The notes under the pieces are model-generated. The model worked only from the letters and a program-made list of their open reading frames with translations. It did no database searches and had not been told where the DNA came from. Of a stretch of 33,080 nt of DNA, positions 17,538-29,040 are shown in pieces. Origin of the DNA: an uncultured beta proteobacterium (GTDB lineage: Bacteria > Pseudomonadota > Gammaproteobacteria > Burkholderiales > Burkholderiaceae); the NCBI GenBank assembly GCA_903995005.1, contig CAJEZV010000012.1:1-33080 (forward strand), read 5' to 3'. Numbering within the stretch: the first letter of the stretch is position 1; every line of letters begins with the position of its first letter. Position numbers and translations under genes: made by a program.

Positions 17538-19157
17538 ATGGGTCCACAAAAATTTATAGCAGCCAATACCGCTGACGCCCTAAAGCTTATACGCGCCGAG
17601 ATGGGTCCTGATGCTATGGTGCTCTCGACTAAAGATACTGATCAAGGTGTCGAAGTAATGGCTATCACTTCTGGTGATTTAGCAAACCTTTCTTCACGCT
17701 CTGAACTCATTAATCCAGAACATGGTGAGCATGGTGTCTTTTCAGAACGCTCGCTAGAACGCTCAGGATTATCAGATAAGTTTGCCAGCGCCATTGCTAG
17801 GCGCGCACCTTCTCCCGCATCCTCTACTCCTGCTAGAGCGTATGCGGGTGTGCCCAATGGTATTGTGCGGCGTAACCCCGCTAGAGCTGAGCGCTCCATT
17901 CGCGCTCCTGGTGCCGAGGCTTTTTTACCGACTTCATTTAATGATGCAGAGCGCATTCCACGAGGATCAACTAATGTTATCAATCCTTCTAATAATGATG
18001 CCATCTTTAGCGCCAGTCTTGCAGCGAACACCAAAGCAGCGCAAGAGGCAGCAGCACTCAATGCCATGAAAAGTGCAGCTCAAAATGCAGCGCAGAGCAT
18101 ACGTGCTGCAAGCGCCCCCAGCCCAGCTAGCATTCCATTAAGCGCCCCCAGCCCTCCCATTGCAGGACCAGCCGAAAGTTCGCCGAAAGTCGAAATGTTG
18201 CTCTCAGAAATCAGTGAAGTGAAGCAGCTATTGCAGTCACACGTTGCCGGCAGTTTTTGGGGCAATCTGCAACAAGAAAATACCCGTATCACTGAGGTTG
18301 TAAAGCATCTTCTCAATAGTGGCTTTTCACCAAAACTGGTAGCGGAAATCTCCCAAAACCTTCCTGAGAATTTGAGTGTATTGCACCTATTGAAAAATGC
18401 TCGGGAGCAAGTTAAATGCATGATGAAAACATCCCATGCATTTGATACTTTTGATCGCGGTGGCGTATTTGCCTTTATTGGCCCTACTGGGGTTGGTAAA
18501 ACAACTACGGTTGCCAAGATTGCTGCTCGCTGTGTGCTGCGCTATGGTCGCAATCAAGTAGCTTTGCTTACAACTGATACCTATCGGATTGGAGCTCAGG
18601 AGCAACTCAAAACTTTTGCCAAAATATTGGGTTTATCGGTTACGGCAGTAAGAGATAGCGAAGACTTGGCTGCTAAAATTAAAGACTTTTCAAATCGCAA
18701 GATCATTTTGCTTGATACCGCTGGCGTAAGCCAACGTGATGCCCTAATGGTTGAGCAATCTCATTTGCTAGAGCATGGCTCCGGTAAAGCACGTCGCATC
18801 CTGGTAATGAGCTCCACTACCGATTTGCGCACTCAAGAAGAAGTCATTAATTTACACAATCAAGCAATGCAAAATACCCATGGTGAAAAGTTGGATCATG
18901 TCATCATCACTAAAATTGATGAAGCAGCACACTTAGCTCCGGTGATAGATAGCGTCATTCGACATAATCTATCCATCTTGTTTGTATCCAATGGCCAACG
19001 TGTTCCAGAAGATCTAAACCAGCCCGATGTCAATTACTTAAGCCACCGTGCGATGGCTATGCGCGCTTTTTCTGAAACTTTCTCATTGACTGACGAGCAA
19101 GTTCCAGCCCTACTTTCCGATCATTTGGGTGACTGGATTCGCAAAGTAAACCAATGA
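17538..19157 (+). CDS. flhF: SRP-type GTPase FlhF
   Basis: FAFIGPTGVGKTTTVAKIAARCVLRYG, LLTTDTYRIGAQEQLKTFAKILGL, ILLDTAGVSQRD; variable basic/Ala-rich N-terminal region. Confidence 0.96.
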   Translation: MGPQKFIAANTADALKLIRAEMGPDAMVLSTKDTDQGVEVMAITSGDLANLSSRSELINPEHGEHGVFSERSLERSGLSDKFASAIARRAPSPASSTPARAYAGVPNGIVRRNPARAERSIRAPGAEAFLPTSFNDAERIPRGSTNVINPSNNDAIFSASLAANTKAAQEAAALNAMKSAAQNAAQSIRAASAPSPASIPLSAPSPPIAGPAESSPKVEMLLSEISEVKQLLQSHVAGSFWGNLQQENTRITEVVKHLLNSGFSPKLVAEISQNLPENLSVLHLLKNAREQVKCMMKTSHAFDTFDRGGVFAFIGPTGVGKTTTVAKIAARCVLRYGRNQVALLTTDTYRIGAQEQLKTFAKILGLSVTAVRDSEDLAAKIKDFSNRKIILLDTAGVSQRDALMVEQSHLLEHGSGKARRILVMSSTTDLRTQEEVINLHNQAMQNTHGEKLDHVIITKIDEAAHLAPVIDSVIRHNLSILFVSNGQRVPEDLNQPDVNYLSHRAMAMRAFSETFSLTDEQVPALLSDHLGDWIRKVNQ

Positions 19158-19972
19158 GTACCTTAGGCACTGCTGGCGGCACCGATCAGGCCGCAGGTTT
19201 ACGTAATATTTTTGGCTCTGAAATGTGCCGCGTTATCTGTATAGCCAGTGCTTTAGATCCAGACTCTACTATTCACTTAGGTCACGGTACCGCACACAGT
19301 ATCAAGCAACTCGGTCATCGGGTACTTCTTGTCGATGAAGTACCTTTGGCTGATCGCAAGACAATGTCTGGTTTTTTATACCCAGTACGTTATGACTTAG
19401 GGCAAGTATTCTCTAACTCTGTTGACTTAACCAAAACCATTAAGCAAATAGAAGACAATCTTTGGTATGCCACTAGCGTAAAACTACGTTCCGAAGTCAA
19501 TGGCCGTTTTGCTAAGTATCCCAAGTTAGATGAGCGCTTGGTAAAGCATGAGGTTGATATCGACTATCTTGTTTTCCCAACGATTGATCCACAAGCCAAT
19601 ATCGTTGCATACTATGGCAACAATATTAAACGCATTTTAGTCACATCTACCGAGGAGTCCTGTCTAAAAAGGGCGATGGTGATGATTCGCCAAATGGCCC
19701 AATTGCAAATCGACGAGCCTTTAGCGGTACTGATTGTTGGCGGCCAGGATGAGGAGGCCGGAAATGCCGCTTTTGAAAAACTCAGAGAAGCGGCTCACAG
19801 AGCTCTTGAGCAAACCATTGAATCTTTGGGTTGGATTAAGGCTTTTACAGCCCAACGCGTAGAAATTGATGTTGATGACATGAGCTTCAATCCTGTTACC
19901 CGTGGTACACCCCATGAATTTGTTCTGCCACATGGTTTCTTTAAGGCAATTTCTGCCAAAATTACAGCTTAA
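19154..19972 (+). CDS. FlhG/FleN-like protein without a P-loop
   Basis: Position between flhF and fliA with an ATGA overlap. CRVICIASALDPDSTIHLGHGTAHSIKQLGHRVLLVDE aligns to the MinD/FlhG N-terminus but lacks KGGVGKT. Confidence 0.75.
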   Translation: MSTLGTAGGTDQAAGLRNIFGSEMCRVICIASALDPDSTIHLGHGTAHSIKQLGHRVLLVDEVPLADRKTMSGFLYPVRYDLGQVFSNSVDLTKTIKQIEDNLWYATSVKLRSEVNGRFAKYPKLDERLVKHEVDIDYLVFPTIDPQANIVAYYGNNIKRILVTSTEESCLKRAMVMIRQMAQLQIDEPLAVLIVGGQDEEAGNAAFEKLREAAHRALEQTIESLGWIKAFTAQRVEIDVDDMSFNPVTRGTPHEFVLPHGFFKAISAKITA

Positions 19973-20767: not shown

Positions 20768-21181
20768 CTACACTTTGCGGGAAAGAACTCCACCAACTGA
20801 GCCAGGTACACCTCCTTCACTATCGTAGGTGGCGCTGGGCGCTTGCTGTGCAATAAAAGACTGCATTGCCGCACTGCGTTGCATCGCAAGACGAATCAAA
20901 TCCCCGTTGATTTGATGATTAACTGAAGCCTCGTCTAATAGGCTAAGCAAAACTTTCTTTTGCTCACCCGAAAACTGCTGAATATCTTGTTTGAGCTTTT
21001 CTGCTCCGCCAGGATAATCATTGATTGCGTCTAACGCTACATTAGTTAAATCTAAGGCAGCAGGAAGTCGATCCATATCATTGGCCTCTAGCGAGCTACG
21101 TAAGTCTCGAATTGCGCCTGCAACCTTTTGCAAAAAGGCCTGCATTCCATCAAATGAATTTGATGGAACTAAATCTGACAT
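20768..21181 (-). CDS. FlgN-like export chaperone
   Basis: Small helical protein after flgA-flgM; position fits FlgN, sequence signature is weak. Confidence 0.55.
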   Translation of the reverse strand: MSDLVPSNSFDGMQAFLQKVAGAIRDLRSSLEANDMDRLPAALDLTNVALDAINDYPGGAEKLKQDIQQFSGEQKKVLLSLLDEASVNHQINGDLIRLAMQRSAAMQSFIAQQAPSATYDSEGGVPGSVGGVLSRKV

Positions 21182-21219: not shown

Positions 21220-21555
21220 TTAAGCTTGTTTTGGCTTTTGACCAATAGCAGCAACAACATCTTTAAGCATAGCCTGAGAAATCTTTTTGTAATCAATCTT
21301 AAATTCGCCATTAGCTACCTGATTGCGCAATTTTTCAATCAAGGCTTCGTCTGTCACTTTGCTTGATTTGGAGTCACTTTGCACTTCAGCTAATTTAGCC
21401 GCTAGGCTAATATCAAGATTAACTGCTGGGCCAGCAACTACATCCGTTGCCACTTTATTGGCGCCCGGGTTTACAGCAGTCGAGTTTAAGCCTGGGTTGG
21501 CTTTGCCAACTCCTGAGTTTGGCGGAATTAGCGCCGAATTCTCGTTAACTTTCAT
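21220..21555 (-). CDS. flgM: Anti-sigma-28 factor FlgM
   Basis: C-terminal KVTDEALIEKLRNQVANGEFKIDYKKISQAMLKDV is FlgM-like; lies between flgA and flgN-like. Confidence 0.9.
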   Translation of the reverse strand: MKVNENSALIPPNSGVGKANPGLNSTAVNPGANKVATDVVAGPAVNLDISLAAKLAEVQSDSKSSKVTDEALIEKLRNQVANGEFKIDYKKISQAMLKDVVAAIGQKPKQA

Positions 21556-21660: not shown

Positions 21661-22338
21661 TTATTCGACGGTTACCACTACTACCGATGGCCTTAAAACC
21701 TTACCTTGCAACACCTGACCATCGGCTAAACGTACCCGGATCATATCGCCAATCATCCCAGCGGTTTGGGCTACGCCCTCACCAGATACTTCAAAATCCT
21801 TACCACTTAAAACTAGCCTAACAGGATCTCCTACCTTTACTACGGATGATTCCTTTAAATCGTTTAGCCCTATTGGAGATCCCATTTGCAGATGTCTACT
21901 TAAAACCCGCTCATAAGCTACTTTAGGGGTGCGCAAAACATCATCAGGCAAGAGACTCAAATCCCCTTCTATGACCCTTATATCAGTAGAATCAAGCTTT
22001 AGACCCGCAGGAAGATAGCGGGCGGCAACCACATAATCTCCAAATACATGCACATTAAAGGGTATATTTACCATCCAGGCTGCCTTGGCGCATCGCAATT
22101 GTAAGGTTGTTCTCCCCCAAACACGAGATCCAGGGGCCGTAGCGATCTCGATAGAACCCCCTAGACAGACTGGAACATTGATATTTGGGTCCACAAGATC
22201 AGCCTGCACGCGTAAGCCATTCACACTAGGGCTTTTTTGAATAAAACGCATAATTTCCTTTTCAACCTCAGGAGCTATGGCTGCCTGAGCGCTTGTGCCT
22301 AAAAAATAGGCAGCTATGATGGTCCAAAAAAAACGCAT
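21661..22338 (-). CDS. flgA: P-ring assembly protein FlgA
   Basis: Signal peptide; VVAARYLPAGLKLDSTDIRVIEGDLSLLPDDVL and GDPVRLVLSGKDFEVSGEGVAQTAGMIGDMIRVRLADGQVLQGKV (SAF/FlgA). Confidence 0.93.
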   Translation of the reverse strand: MRFFWTIIAAYFLGTSAQAAIAPEVEKEIMRFIQKSPSVNGLRVQADLVDPNINVPVCLGGSIEIATAPGSRVWGRTTLQLRCAKAAWMVNIPFNVHVFGDYVVAARYLPAGLKLDSTDIRVIEGDLSLLPDDVLRTPKVAYERVLSRHLQMGSPIGLNDLKESSVVKVGDPVRLVLSGKDFEVSGEGVAQTAGMIGDMIRVRLADGQVLQGKVLRPSVVVVTVE

Positions 22339-23924
22339 TATCTAGAGTACCGGTCTAGGGCAATCCAAGAGTAAACATTATTGGCGCCGTCTAGTGCTAC
22401 GCCTGCCATCCAGTAAGGTCGCTCTAGGGATCTTGGAAGATTTTGATGCACATTCATATTTTGAACACCCAAGAATTCGTGGGCGTGAATCACATAATCT
22501 TGATTACCAGCGCGAACATAGATACTTCGAGCTGGGTGAATGATCTCCCCCAAGAAATCAATCTTAGAATCACCCCCCCTGGTCAAGGGCTCTTCCCCAA
22601 GGTACTGAATGGCTGATACCGCATATTGCTCACCATGGCGAGTGAAAAAGGCCATTGGCATTCGAAGTAAGCTAGATGGACAAGACAAACGCACACCATC
22701 GTGATGTATCTCAAGTGAACCCCCTATCTCAGCCATCATGCTGCTCACAGCTAAGAGGTGCTCACTAGAAAGCGTCACATGATCTAAATCGACAAAAATC
22801 ATCAGCTCTTGCTGAACAGCAAAGATACTAGGACAAGGCGGCAAAATACTGAGTATGGTCAAGAGTTGCTGCGCAATCTCCGGATCAGCATAGACTTCAT
22901 CAATTAACAGCTCATCTGTTAAATTATCAAAAATATGACGCAAAGATTGCTGTCCAGACCGCACGAGTTCATCTTGCTCGCGACCAAGTAAATAATCTAC
23001 CTCTACGCCACTCCAGTTATCGCCCTTACCAACTAAACTGCGCGCTTTTTGCATGCGATTTAAATTGATAGAGCGATCTAAGGTGTAATGTTTATCTAAA
23101 TAACGCGTCTTGCTAGAGTACTCAAAAGCACTTTCTCGATCAATCGGCTTTGTTAAATTTTCGGGTAATGAGAAAGGCTTTGGCTCAGGCGTGGCAAATA
23201 CTATCGGAGGAAATTCTTTTCTTGGCGCAAACAAATGATTGATTTCATTTACTGCGCGGTCTAGATTCTGCTCCAAGACCTGTTGGCGCGAGGCTGGCTC
23301 TTGCGCAGCAGGCGCCATCATTTGCTGTGGTGCTGCTTGTTCTGGAGTACTTCCCTTTTTCGCCTGCAAACCACGAAAGAGTCCCGGCGAAAATTCTTGA
23401 TTTGGAAACACGTCCTCAACCTCTTCCTCAAGCGGGAAATCTTTATCTGCAGCAACTGTCACACTGCTTTCGACTTGATTCGACTGTACAGACTTCTCTG
23501 ATTCCTGGTTTAGATTTAAACTGTTTACCGCAATAGGCTCAGGAGAAATTGGTGCACCAGCTTTTAACTGAGCTAATTTATTGACAAAACTAGATTTAGC
23601 AGCTTGCAATATCTCATCACTAACACCCGATTGGGATGTGTCGCCAGGATGAACTTGTGTGACCCCAGCATTTGTTAGGGCAATGAAGTCATTTATCAAT
23701 AATAAAGATTGCGCTTGATTATTCTTAAATTGATTTGCAAGTTCTTGTGCAAACTCGGAGAGATCCTCAAGACCTGCCCCGTCAAGTGCATTGGCTAGAT
23801 CAATGCAATGCAATACAATGGACTCAACCTTGATTGGCTCAGATGTATTTTTAGGCGTAGAAGACAGCAACCCTTCGATGGCACGATCGACGTCTATTAA
23901 AAACAGGGGTTTTTCTTCGGCCAT
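22338..23924 (-). CDS. CheA/ChpA-like protein with eroded kinase core and CheW-like C-terminus
   Basis: MMAEIGGSLEIHHDGVRLSCPSSLLRMPMAFFTRHGEQYAVSAIQYL resembles the end of a CheA ATPase domain running into a CheW domain; RSIYVRAGNQDYVIHAHEFLGVQNMNVHQNLPRSLERPYWMAGVALDGANNVYSWIALDRYS resembles the CheW second half. TAATG overlap with flgA. Confidence 0.6.
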   Translation of the reverse strand: MAEEKPLFLIDVDRAIEGLLSSTPKNTSEPIKVESIVLHCIDLANALDGAGLEDLSEFAQELANQFKNNQAQSLLLINDFIALTNAGVTQVHPGDTSQSGVSDEILQAAKSSFVNKLAQLKAGAPISPEPIAVNSLNLNQESEKSVQSNQVESSVTVAADKDFPLEEEVEDVFPNQEFSPGLFRGLQAKKGSTPEQAAPQQMMAPAAQEPASRQQVLEQNLDRAVNEINHLFAPRKEFPPIVFATPEPKPFSLPENLTKPIDRESAFEYSSKTRYLDKHYTLDRSINLNRMQKARSLVGKGDNWSGVEVDYLLGREQDELVRSGQQSLRHIFDNLTDELLIDEVYADPEIAQQLLTILSILPPCPSIFAVQQELMIFVDLDHVTLSSEHLLAVSSMMAEIGGSLEIHHDGVRLSCPSSLLRMPMAFFTRHGEQYAVSAIQYLGEEPLTRGGDSKIDFLGEIIHPARSIYVRAGNQDYVIHAHEFLGVQNMNVHQNLPRSLERPYWMAGVALDGANNVYSWIALDRYSR

Positions 23925-25986: not shown

Positions 25987-26394
25987 TTATAAAACCCCCA
26001 CCAAATGAAAATCTGAACCGTTGTAGTGTAGAAAGGGTGTTTCAGGAAAAATGAATGCATGGAACGGGCCCACAATATTGTTTACCCTGAAGCCAAGGCC
26101 CTTATCTATCCCATCTTTTAATACCACTACCCATGGAGCATGATCACGTTTTAATACCTGCTGCCAAGGCGCCATATTCTCAACTCGCTGACCTGTTCTA
26201 AGTAGCTGAAAATGATTGCGAAGATAGACGGGCTCACCCTCATGCACTACCACGCCGCTAATTTTGAGATCTTTAATCGATTGCTCCGCCTCAGGACAAA
26301 GAAAGACTGAGTGGACAAGCGATGCCGGCAGCGCATAACGCTCCCCATTGATGCGCAGGCCTAACCAATACTCTTGATTCTCTAAAGAACTCAC
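25987..26394 (-). CDS. CheW/PilI-like adaptor
   Basis: YWLGLRINGERYALPASLVHSVFL...ISGVVVHEGEPVYLRNHFQLL...WVVVLKDGIDKGLGFRVNNIVGPF follows CheW fold order; GTGA overlap with the upstream PDZ gene. Confidence 0.7.
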   Translation of the reverse strand: MSSLENQEYWLGLRINGERYALPASLVHSVFLCPEAEQSIKDLKISGVVVHEGEPVYLRNHFQLLRTGQRVENMAPWQQVLKRDHAPWVVVLKDGIDKGLGFRVNNIVGPFHAFIFPETPFLHYNGSDFHLVGVL

Positions 26395-27419
26395 GATATC
26401 TTACCTGCGAGGCGACGTTGATACCAAAACAGGAATCCAGCAATCCCAAAAATGACTAGACTACAAACGAAGCCGACCACCGCATCACCCATGCCAGTCA
26501 TATAAAACGCATTTTTATTTTCTATTTTTCTTCTTTGAGAAAAATAAGCATCAACACTCTCAAGTACTTTTTTATGTTGCCAATTCAGTACATCCTTGGA
26601 CTGAAGTTTAACTGGAGATGATCCGGTTAGATCTATTACTCCTTTGGAAATTAAGTTTAAGCGTTTGGCATTTTGCATTAAGTTGTTCGCAGCTTCAGTA
26701 CGCCAATCAACCGAAATAACAGGCAGCATTTCACGGCGGTATTGCTCAGCCATGCGTTTGCTGTCTTGCTCAGTGAGATACACTGCTTCTGGTGGAACTG
26801 CAAATCTGATACCACTATTACCGCCAGTAATAGGAGTACGGCTTGGATTTTTCATTGCAACCGAAATATTGTTTTGCTTATTTCTCAGTAACCTCAAGCT
26901 TGTTTCAGAAGATAACTTTTCATTTAGAGCCTGGTAATAACCCATGACTGACTCAATCTTAATAGAGCTAACGTACTGCACAAGATCACCCGGCTTTACC
27001 CCAGCTACATCGGCGGGTGATCCAGGTTCAACTGATTCAACAGTAGGAAGCGTTATTGTCAAAATCGGCCCAGAGCGCTTATTTTCAAACTCTGTAAAGT
27101 ATTGAAATGCCCTATTCACAGCATCATCCAAATTGACTGGAATAATCGCATCTTCGGCCAATTTAGGAACATCACTAGGCTTTAATCGACGAGTATTAAG
27201 TGTGGAATTATTGAGACGAAAATCAATTGCCTGATAACTGACATACTCTTCCAAATTGGGCATCGTTACCTTCAGATTTTTTAAGTCCGAGGAGGAGCTT
27301 GATAATTCAGCGGCGGCACCCAAAAGGGTTGCCAAAGAAAAAAACAATAGGAGGCTTGAAAAAGCTAAAAACCAAAAGTAAAGCCCTTTTTGCGTCCGAG
27401 GAAACTGAATTTTTAGCAC
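26391..27419 (-). CDS. PDZ-domain membrane protein with two TM segments
   Basis: PDZ core VESVEPGSPADVAGVKPGDLVQYVSSIKIESV; N-terminal TM FWFLAFSSLLLFFSLATLL and C-terminal TM VVGFVCSLVIFGIAGFLFWYQRR. No HExxH protease motif seen. Confidence 0.8.
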   Translation of the reverse strand: MLKIQFPRTQKGLYFWFLAFSSLLLFFSLATLLGAAAELSSSSSDLKNLKVTMPNLEEYVSYQAIDFRLNNSTLNTRRLKPSDVPKLAEDAIIPVNLDDAVNRAFQYFTEFENKRSGPILTITLPTVESVEPGSPADVAGVKPGDLVQYVSSIKIESVMGYYQALNEKLSSETSLRLLRNKQNNISVAMKNPSRTPITGGNSGIRFAVPPEAVYLTEQDSKRMAEQYRREMLPVISVDWRTEAANNLMQNAKRLNLISKGVIDLTGSSPVKLQSKDVLNWQHKKVLESVDAYFSQRRKIENKNAFYMTGMGDAVVGFVCSLVIFGIAGFLFWYQRRLAGKIS

Positions 27420-28281: not shown

Positions 28282-29040
28282 TTACTCATGCCAAGAAGCC
28301 CCTAAATACCAGCGATTTAAACGACTTTGGACACGCGCATTCTCAATAGCACTTCGAGTACTTTCAAATTCTTTAAGGGCGAGTTTTTTAGGCTCATATA
28401 ACTCGCAACCAGCACGAATACGATCGATATCAGTTCCAGGACGTACATTTTTAATTTCCAAGTCTATGGTGGTTGAACGCAATCTAAGGCGCTCAAAATA
28501 ACCGGAATGCCAATAACGTCCTACCTCCACTTCTGTTGCACCTAAACGTAGATCTAATAAAATGCCATGGTCAGATATATCAATTACCTTAGTGAGTAAC
28601 TCTTGCCCAGCACCAAGGCAGAGCACAAAATTTAAATCATCATCTGCGGGTCCAAGGGTTCTGAATTCTTTGCGGCGCTGAATCAAAATTAAATCTGCTG
28701 GCAATGGGCATAACAAGTTGCCCTCGTCATTTAGCTTTAAATTGCTTGCCAAGAATTGCAACTTACCGCTATCGCTACACAGTACCACAATGCGATGCCC
28801 ACCAATTAGACTTGTAAAACCACCCTCCGGCTTTATTTCGGACTTCATCACCAATAAACCTTGACGGATATCCAAGATACTCACTGGTATGGCTGTACCA
28901 TTACCATCAATTGGATATAAACCAGCTAAGGGAATTTTATGCAACTCCCGTTCTATCGTCTTAGTAATAGCACGAGGTTCAACATGGAATCTTGGCTCGA
29001 TACTTTTGAGTCCTTCAGGCGGGAAAATATTAAATCTCAT
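28282..29040 (-). CDS. YcgR-like PilZ domain protein
   Basis: PilZ motifs QRRKEFR (RxxxR) and DISDHG (DxSxxG) with a preceding YcgR-N-like beta domain. Confidence 0.8.
   Translation of the reverse strand: MRFNIFPPEGLKSIEPRFHVEPRAITKTIERELHKIPLAGLYPIDGNGTAIPVSILDIRQGLLVMKSEIKPEGGFTSLIGGHRIVVLCSDSGKLQFLASNLKLNDEGNLLCPLPADLILIQRRKEFRTLGPADDDLNFVLCLGAGQELLTKVIDISDHGILLDLRLGATEVEVGRYWHSGYFERLRLRSTTIDLEIKNVRPGTDIDRIRAGCELYEPKKLALKEFESTRSAIENARVQSRLNRWYLGASWHE

Follow-up and report, generated by a model that had tools for sequence, protein, structure and literature searches.

Can a protein descended from the chemotaxis kinase CheA remain useful to a flagellum after its kinase machinery is gone? This question is raised by an open reading frame, here termed pseudo-CheA, in the window (the whole 33,080-nucleotide stretch of DNA that was analysed), which comes from a bacterium probably of the genus Polynucleobacter (Burkholderiales). 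An earlier note, made from the letters alone, had read its C-terminal third as the tail of a CheA ATPase domain with a CheW-like domain after it, had found neither an N-box nor a G1 box, had likened the N-terminus to an HPt helix lacking the usual HxLKG, and had proposed a pseudokinase scaffold that binds through its CheW-like part. Such a protein would give an example from nature of a chemosensory complex in which the structural components have survived the kinase. It would allow a direct test for any role of CheA-CheW-receptor assemblies apart from phosphorylation, and it yields a testable claim on how flagellated small-genome freshwater-type bacteria without chemotaxis regulate their flagella. 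A partial literature search found no published description of pseudo-CheA.

Domain architecture of pseudo-CheA

The AlphaFold2 model of pseudo-CheA, computed with 14 orthologs as input, has a mean pLDDT of 70.6, with values of 85-95 across most of residues 310-480. It displays, in order, a P1-like helical bundle, a disordered linker, two P3-like helices, an alpha/beta region at the place of P4, and a beta-rich region (residues 421-521) at the place of P5 (Table 1). When the model was compared with the PDB by Foldseek, the first eight hits were all CheA P3-P4-P5 structures (E = 1.3e-10 to 2.8e-8); P5-CheW complexes came next, then CheW. In support of this assignment, hhalign matched residues 371-523 to the end of P4 and the P5 domain of CheA at P = 2e-6, and a shorter segment, residues 393-518, to ChpA/PilL at P = 1e-4. 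Unrelated profiles, ten in all and built from flagellar or neighbouring proteins, gave P >= 0.038. The P5-like part, which is the most conserved region of the protein, also aligned with P5 of CheA/ChpA when taken alone and is not detected by Pfam. The earlier reading of the C-terminus is thus borne out by both fold and profile.

Table 1. Features of the window, with the evidence for each assignment.
Feature	Position	Strand	Evidence or remarks
flhG-position protein	19154-19972	+	N-terminal DQAxGLR kept; no Walker A (GKGGVGKT); no Pfam match
flgN-like	20768..21181	-	
flgM	21220..21555	-	
flgA	21661..22338	-	overlaps pseudo-CheA stop codon
pseudo-CheA, 528 aa	22338..23924	-	ORF, AlphaFold2 model, Foldseek, hhalign, column counts
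P5/CheW-like domain, residues 418-525	22350..22673	-	hhalign against P5 of CheA/ChpA, P = 2e-5; Foldseek
degenerate P4, residues 338-416, without N-box, G1, ATP lid, G2	22677..22913	-	AlphaFold2, Foldseek, columns, boxes
two helices, residues 284-322, at the place of the P3 dimerisation domain	22959..23075	-	AlphaFold2; within CheA P3-P5 Foldseek alignments
P1/HPt-like helical region, residues 7-121	23562..23906	-	AlphaFold2 secondary structure, weak CheA P1 fold match, column counts
receptor-like membrane protein, 661 aa	23958..25943	-	TM, long helical periplasmic part, TM, helical cytoplasmic part
CheW-like protein, 135 aa, degenerate	25987..26394	-	Pfam CheW E 0.0011, below cut-off
PDZ protein, two TM helices (15-33, 313-331)	26391..27419	-	PDZ presumably periplasmic
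p269, 269 aa	27428..28237	-	single TM, coiled coil, conserved C-terminal domain
weak PilZ/YcgR-like protein	28282..29040	-	upstream; kept there in part of the genus

The two short P3-like helices (residues 284-299 and 304-322) lie inside the CheA fold alignment and find no support in sequence. The N-terminal bundle weakly matched CheA P1 domains by Foldseek (3kyi, the P1 domain of CheA3; probability 0.99, E = 0.19). By sequence profile the same region gave no HPt support (P = 0.42), and the Pfam Hpt model matched weakly in 1 of the 14 members (E 0.0038). The likeness to HPt therefore stands as far as the helices, the retained histidine (His39) and the missing HxLKG are concerned, and assignment to HPt draws on the fold and on this single Pfam match. 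In one species (G003; L019, 9291-11915), pseudo-CheA is 874 residues long, with a far longer linker between its P1-like and P3-like parts.

Pseudo-CheA matched no Pfam or NCBIfam model, and PDB sequence searches with its single sequence, its C-terminal profile and the profile of the CheW-like protein returned nothing meaningful. The absence of Pfam and PDB sequence matches would be expected of an unrelated family whose model resembles CheA by convergence. However, several domains match in one order with a Foldseek E of 1e-10, the profile alignment (P 2e-6) is collinear, and a CheW-like gene lies next door; because of this collinearity we reject convergence, which we regard as very unlikely.

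The ATP site and the phosphoryl acceptor

The earlier note had suggested structure prediction and superposition on CheA as a check. Here, the comparison recovered the CheA P3-P4-P5 arrangement with a degenerate P4 and no intact Bergerat ATP site. Residues 338-416 form a strand-helix-strand-strand-helix-strand-strand remnant in the element order of the Bergerat fold; it has lost the ATP lid and the boxes. The helix that follows 'ADPEI' stands at the position of the CheA N-box helix, the expected N-box Asn positions are occupied by Leu, Thr or Ile among the homologs, and 'GGSLEI..GVRLSCPSSL' corresponds to 'GGxVxI...GTxxxLxxPLTL' of CheA. Pfam HATPase_c did not match pseudo-CheA. The loss of the N-box and G1 box proved to be family-wide: none of 45 distinct full-length homologs carries NxxDHG, DDGxG or GRGxG. 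The same scan of nine reference CheA/ChpA proteins from related genomes detected G1 and G2 in all nine and the N-box in eight.

In the expected P1-like helix, the column of His39 holds His in 28 of 43 homologs and Tyr in the other 15, and the position of the HxxKG lysine is an invariant aspartate (Asp42). HPt domains carry Lys at this position. Judged from these columns, phosphotransfer by pseudo-CheA appears unlikely, because a selected phosphoryl acceptor would not be Tyr in one third of the homologs; for the His-bearing members this is less certain. Compared with a CheA histidine kinase, pseudo-CheA possesses P5 and lacks both the P4 boxes and a P1 histidine in an HxxKG context. The proposal of a pseudokinase was upheld: the CheA fold, the absence of ATP-site boxes from every homolog, the Tyr at position 39 and the strong purifying selection described below make it well supported that pseudo-CheA is homologous to CheA and has ceased to be a kinase.

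In a survey of CheA proteins found by HATPase_c and CheW models, the kinase domain was taken to be present in every CheA (PMC10542144). By that definition pseudo-CheA is not a CheA, being a homolog without the defining activity, and its family is therefore invisible to such searches. The use of a histidine-kinase fold without kinase activity is shared with DivL, a repurposed ordinary transmembrane histidine kinase (PMC4211667). DivL, however, does not belong to the CheA family, and its fold is largely intact.

A conserved module in a flagellar operon

Beyond the single protein considered in the earlier note lies a larger fact: flagellated bacteria that have no ordinary chemotaxis share a conserved module of five genes. 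The gene order p269, PDZ, CheW-like, receptor-like, pseudo-CheA, flgA, flgM, flgN is common to two families, between which the module order and the invariant residues are kept at 22-30% identity. The module is adjoined by fliA-flhG-flhF-flhA, and flhF, flhG and fliA are its neighbours in all carriers seen. In two members of the host genus (G036 and G018), the p269 and PDZ genes are not adjacent. No sigma-28 consensus was found in the window; sigma-54 sites, allowing two mismatches, were barely above chance, with none convincing upstream of the operon.

The 661-residue product of the receptor-like gene has one N-terminal TM helix and another at residues 387-405, as in the topology of chemoreceptors, and it is this topology, together with the gene position, that suggests a receptor. 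It gave no MCPsignal match, that is, no MCP signalling hairpin by profile, and its hhalign comparison with PilJ was not significant (P 0.04-0.16). Its model is poor (pLDDT 50) and unfit for a fold search. Among orthologs of the CheW-like protein, 7 of 13 matched Pfam CheW weakly (best 1.4e-4). The protein p269 accompanies pseudo-CheA throughout and is better conserved than any other product of the module, reaching 84% identity between species.

In its order CheW, receptor, CheA, the module resembles pilI-pilJ-chpA of the Pil-Chp system, and the P5 domain aligns with ChpA/PilL at P of about 1e-4. Unlike Pil-Chp, the module has no kinase, MCPsignal or CheY-like domain and belongs to a flagellum. 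Descent of the module from Chp is not demonstrated by the profiles, because CheA is matched (2e-6) at least as well as ChpA.

With the C-terminal profile, pseudo-CheA was detected in 44 of the 186 species searched in the host genus, and in 5 of 26 genomes of a second family of the same order. Most genomes of the host genus measure 1.5-3 Mb, and its family contains genera of 6-8 Mb as well. The reading frames are intact in the roughly 50 species with pseudo-CheA. Across 398 genomes sampled evenly from the order, pseudo-CheA was confined to those two groups, plus one spurious match, and it occurred together with p269 in exactly the same seven genomes. Among 369 genomes of the class, the window's own genome gave the sole match, and a tblastn search of plasmids gave none. 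The spurious match in the order, a distant one in G239 (E 3e-4), was rejected as a filamentous haemagglutinin-type protein.

Pairwise dN/dS values for the pseudo-CheA, receptor-like and CheW-like genes lie between 0.04 and 0.12, similar to those of the nearby flgA and rpoN, with some pairs near saturation at synonymous sites. Pseudo-CheA is thus under strong purifying selection; it is being maintained and is no relic. That the CheW-like and receptor-like partners are degenerate too might have pointed to a functionless, decaying remainder of a chemotaxis or Pil-Chp operon. Because of this selection, we reject such decay, which is extremely improbable also in view of the frames kept intact across two families and of the invariant residues and gene order preserved despite the low identity.

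Chemotaxis genes in carriers and the role of the module

Flagellin was found in 13 of the 14 carriers tested. An ordinary CheW (at the Pfam cut-off) and a CheA-type Hpt were each absent from 13 of them, and MCPsignal was absent from 12; weak Hpt matches in ORFs of about 810 residues elsewhere are present in non-carriers as well. The window's genome is 80% complete, and the complete single-contig genomes of relatives (G010, G012, G018, G031 and G036) give the same absence of chemotaxis genes. Most carriers are thus flagellated bacteria in which no working chemotaxis kinase is seen. The LSQxExDxLL peptide of FliM binds phospho-CheY. This N-terminal peptide is absent from FliM in 12 of 12 carriers examined, covering all sampled clades (L150:5985-7082, L153:1821-2924 and others), and is present in both flagellated non-carriers found (G034 and G029). 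The flagellum of carriers therefore looks blind to CheY.

One carrier, G401, is an exception, with a cluster of CheA, CheW, MCP, CheB and CheR-like genes (L051:4304-12084), after which comes a fusion of a receiver domain with a class III nucleotide cyclase. Because this fusion accompanies the chemosensory genes, the system may well act on cAMP instead of on the motor. Its full CheA system could in principle phosphorylate the P1-like His39 in trans.

Pseudo-CheA finds its closest precedent in Rhodobacter sphaeroides CheA3, whose kinase domain is degenerate too. CheA3 consists of P1, P5 and a degenerate kinase domain without Mg/ATP-binding residues, and is phosphorylated by CheA4 within a working chemotaxis cluster (PMC3591291, PMC10542144). 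Both proteins are CheA-type, with P1, P5 and a degenerate internal kinase domain. This shared architecture (PMC10542144, PMC3591291) and the His39 retained in most homologs would suit a split kinase, in which another kinase phosphorylates the P1-like domain in trans and the phosphate is passed to a regulator. In contrast to CheA3, however, pseudo-CheA occurs without another CheA-type protein in 13 of 14 carriers, its phospho-His is unconserved, being Tyr in 15 of 43 homologs with an invariant Asp for the HxxKG Lys, and its receptor and adaptor are degenerate. Carrier FliM, moreover, lacks the CheY-docking peptide. We therefore consider a split kinase unlikely.

Our preferred reading, which we hold to be probable though far from settled, is that pseudo-CheA is a CheA-derived non-catalytic scaffold in a membrane complex dedicated to the flagellum. 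With its P1-like bundle, shortened P3, P4 shell and P5, it would form the cytoplasmic hub of this complex, joined by the CheW-like adaptor, the receptor-like protein with its large periplasmic helical part, the periplasmic PDZ protein and p269. The CheW-like and receptor-like partners would be bound through the P5-like part; from sequence and gene context, binding through this part, as the earlier note had proposed, is a reasonable inference because the P5-like part is best conserved and the two genes always lie alongside. The module would be co-expressed with flgA-flgM-flgN and would serve the flagellum, in its placement, assembly or motor state, via protein contacts and not by phosphotransfer to CheY. 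We infer the formation of the complex, the receptor identity of the 661-residue protein and the output of the module. An envelope signal is plausible because the PDZ and receptor-like proteins have periplasmic parts. Against the scaffold stand the insignificant likeness of the 661-residue protein to PilJ and its poor model, the CheW-like match below cut-off, the weakness of P1 by sequence, and the full CheA system of G401 with its possible action on His39. A bolder proposal is that pseudo-CheA and its CheW-like and receptor-like partners form a chemosensory-type complex which steers the flagellum without kinase or CheY, by conformation or assembly alone, and which has replaced classical chemotaxis in the carriers; it is put forward tentatively and is more probably wrong than right.

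A role of the module at the pole is plausible because flhF and an flhG without Walker A are its neighbours. ParC/ParP and FimV/FimL are the comparison systems for such a role. Carried to its end, this idea holds that the module labels the pole bearing the flagellum or sets flagellar number with FlhF and a degenerate FlhG, with no sensing involved. It would agree with the presence of flhF, flhG and fliA beside the module in all carriers seen, and with an FlhG that keeps DQAxGLR without Walker A, so that control of flagellar number may need another component. Pseudomonas FimL offers a precedent, being a dead protein at the pole that resembles only the HPt region at the N-terminus of ChpA (PMC3019171). 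FimL likewise derives from the CheA/ChpA group, takes up no phosphate canonically and is a presumed binding partner; pseudo-CheA differs in keeping P3-P4-P5-like parts and in lying in a flagellar operon. On the other hand, the module includes two to three membrane proteins that reach into the periplasm, which points to an envelope input, and function does not follow from gene neighbourhood alone. A purely polar landmark thus appears doubtful, and we place it behind the scaffold.

The protein at the flhG position, which we take to be a pseudo-ATPase FlhG, keeps DQAxGLR and has neither Walker A nor a Pfam match in all carrier orthologs; its counterparts in the non-carriers G007, G014 and G034 lack Walker A as well. 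Elsewhere, at locus L158 (G000:C6:10000-29000), flgK-like, flgL, motA and motB genes occur twice on one contig as near-identical inverted copies, representing either a duplication or an assembly artefact.
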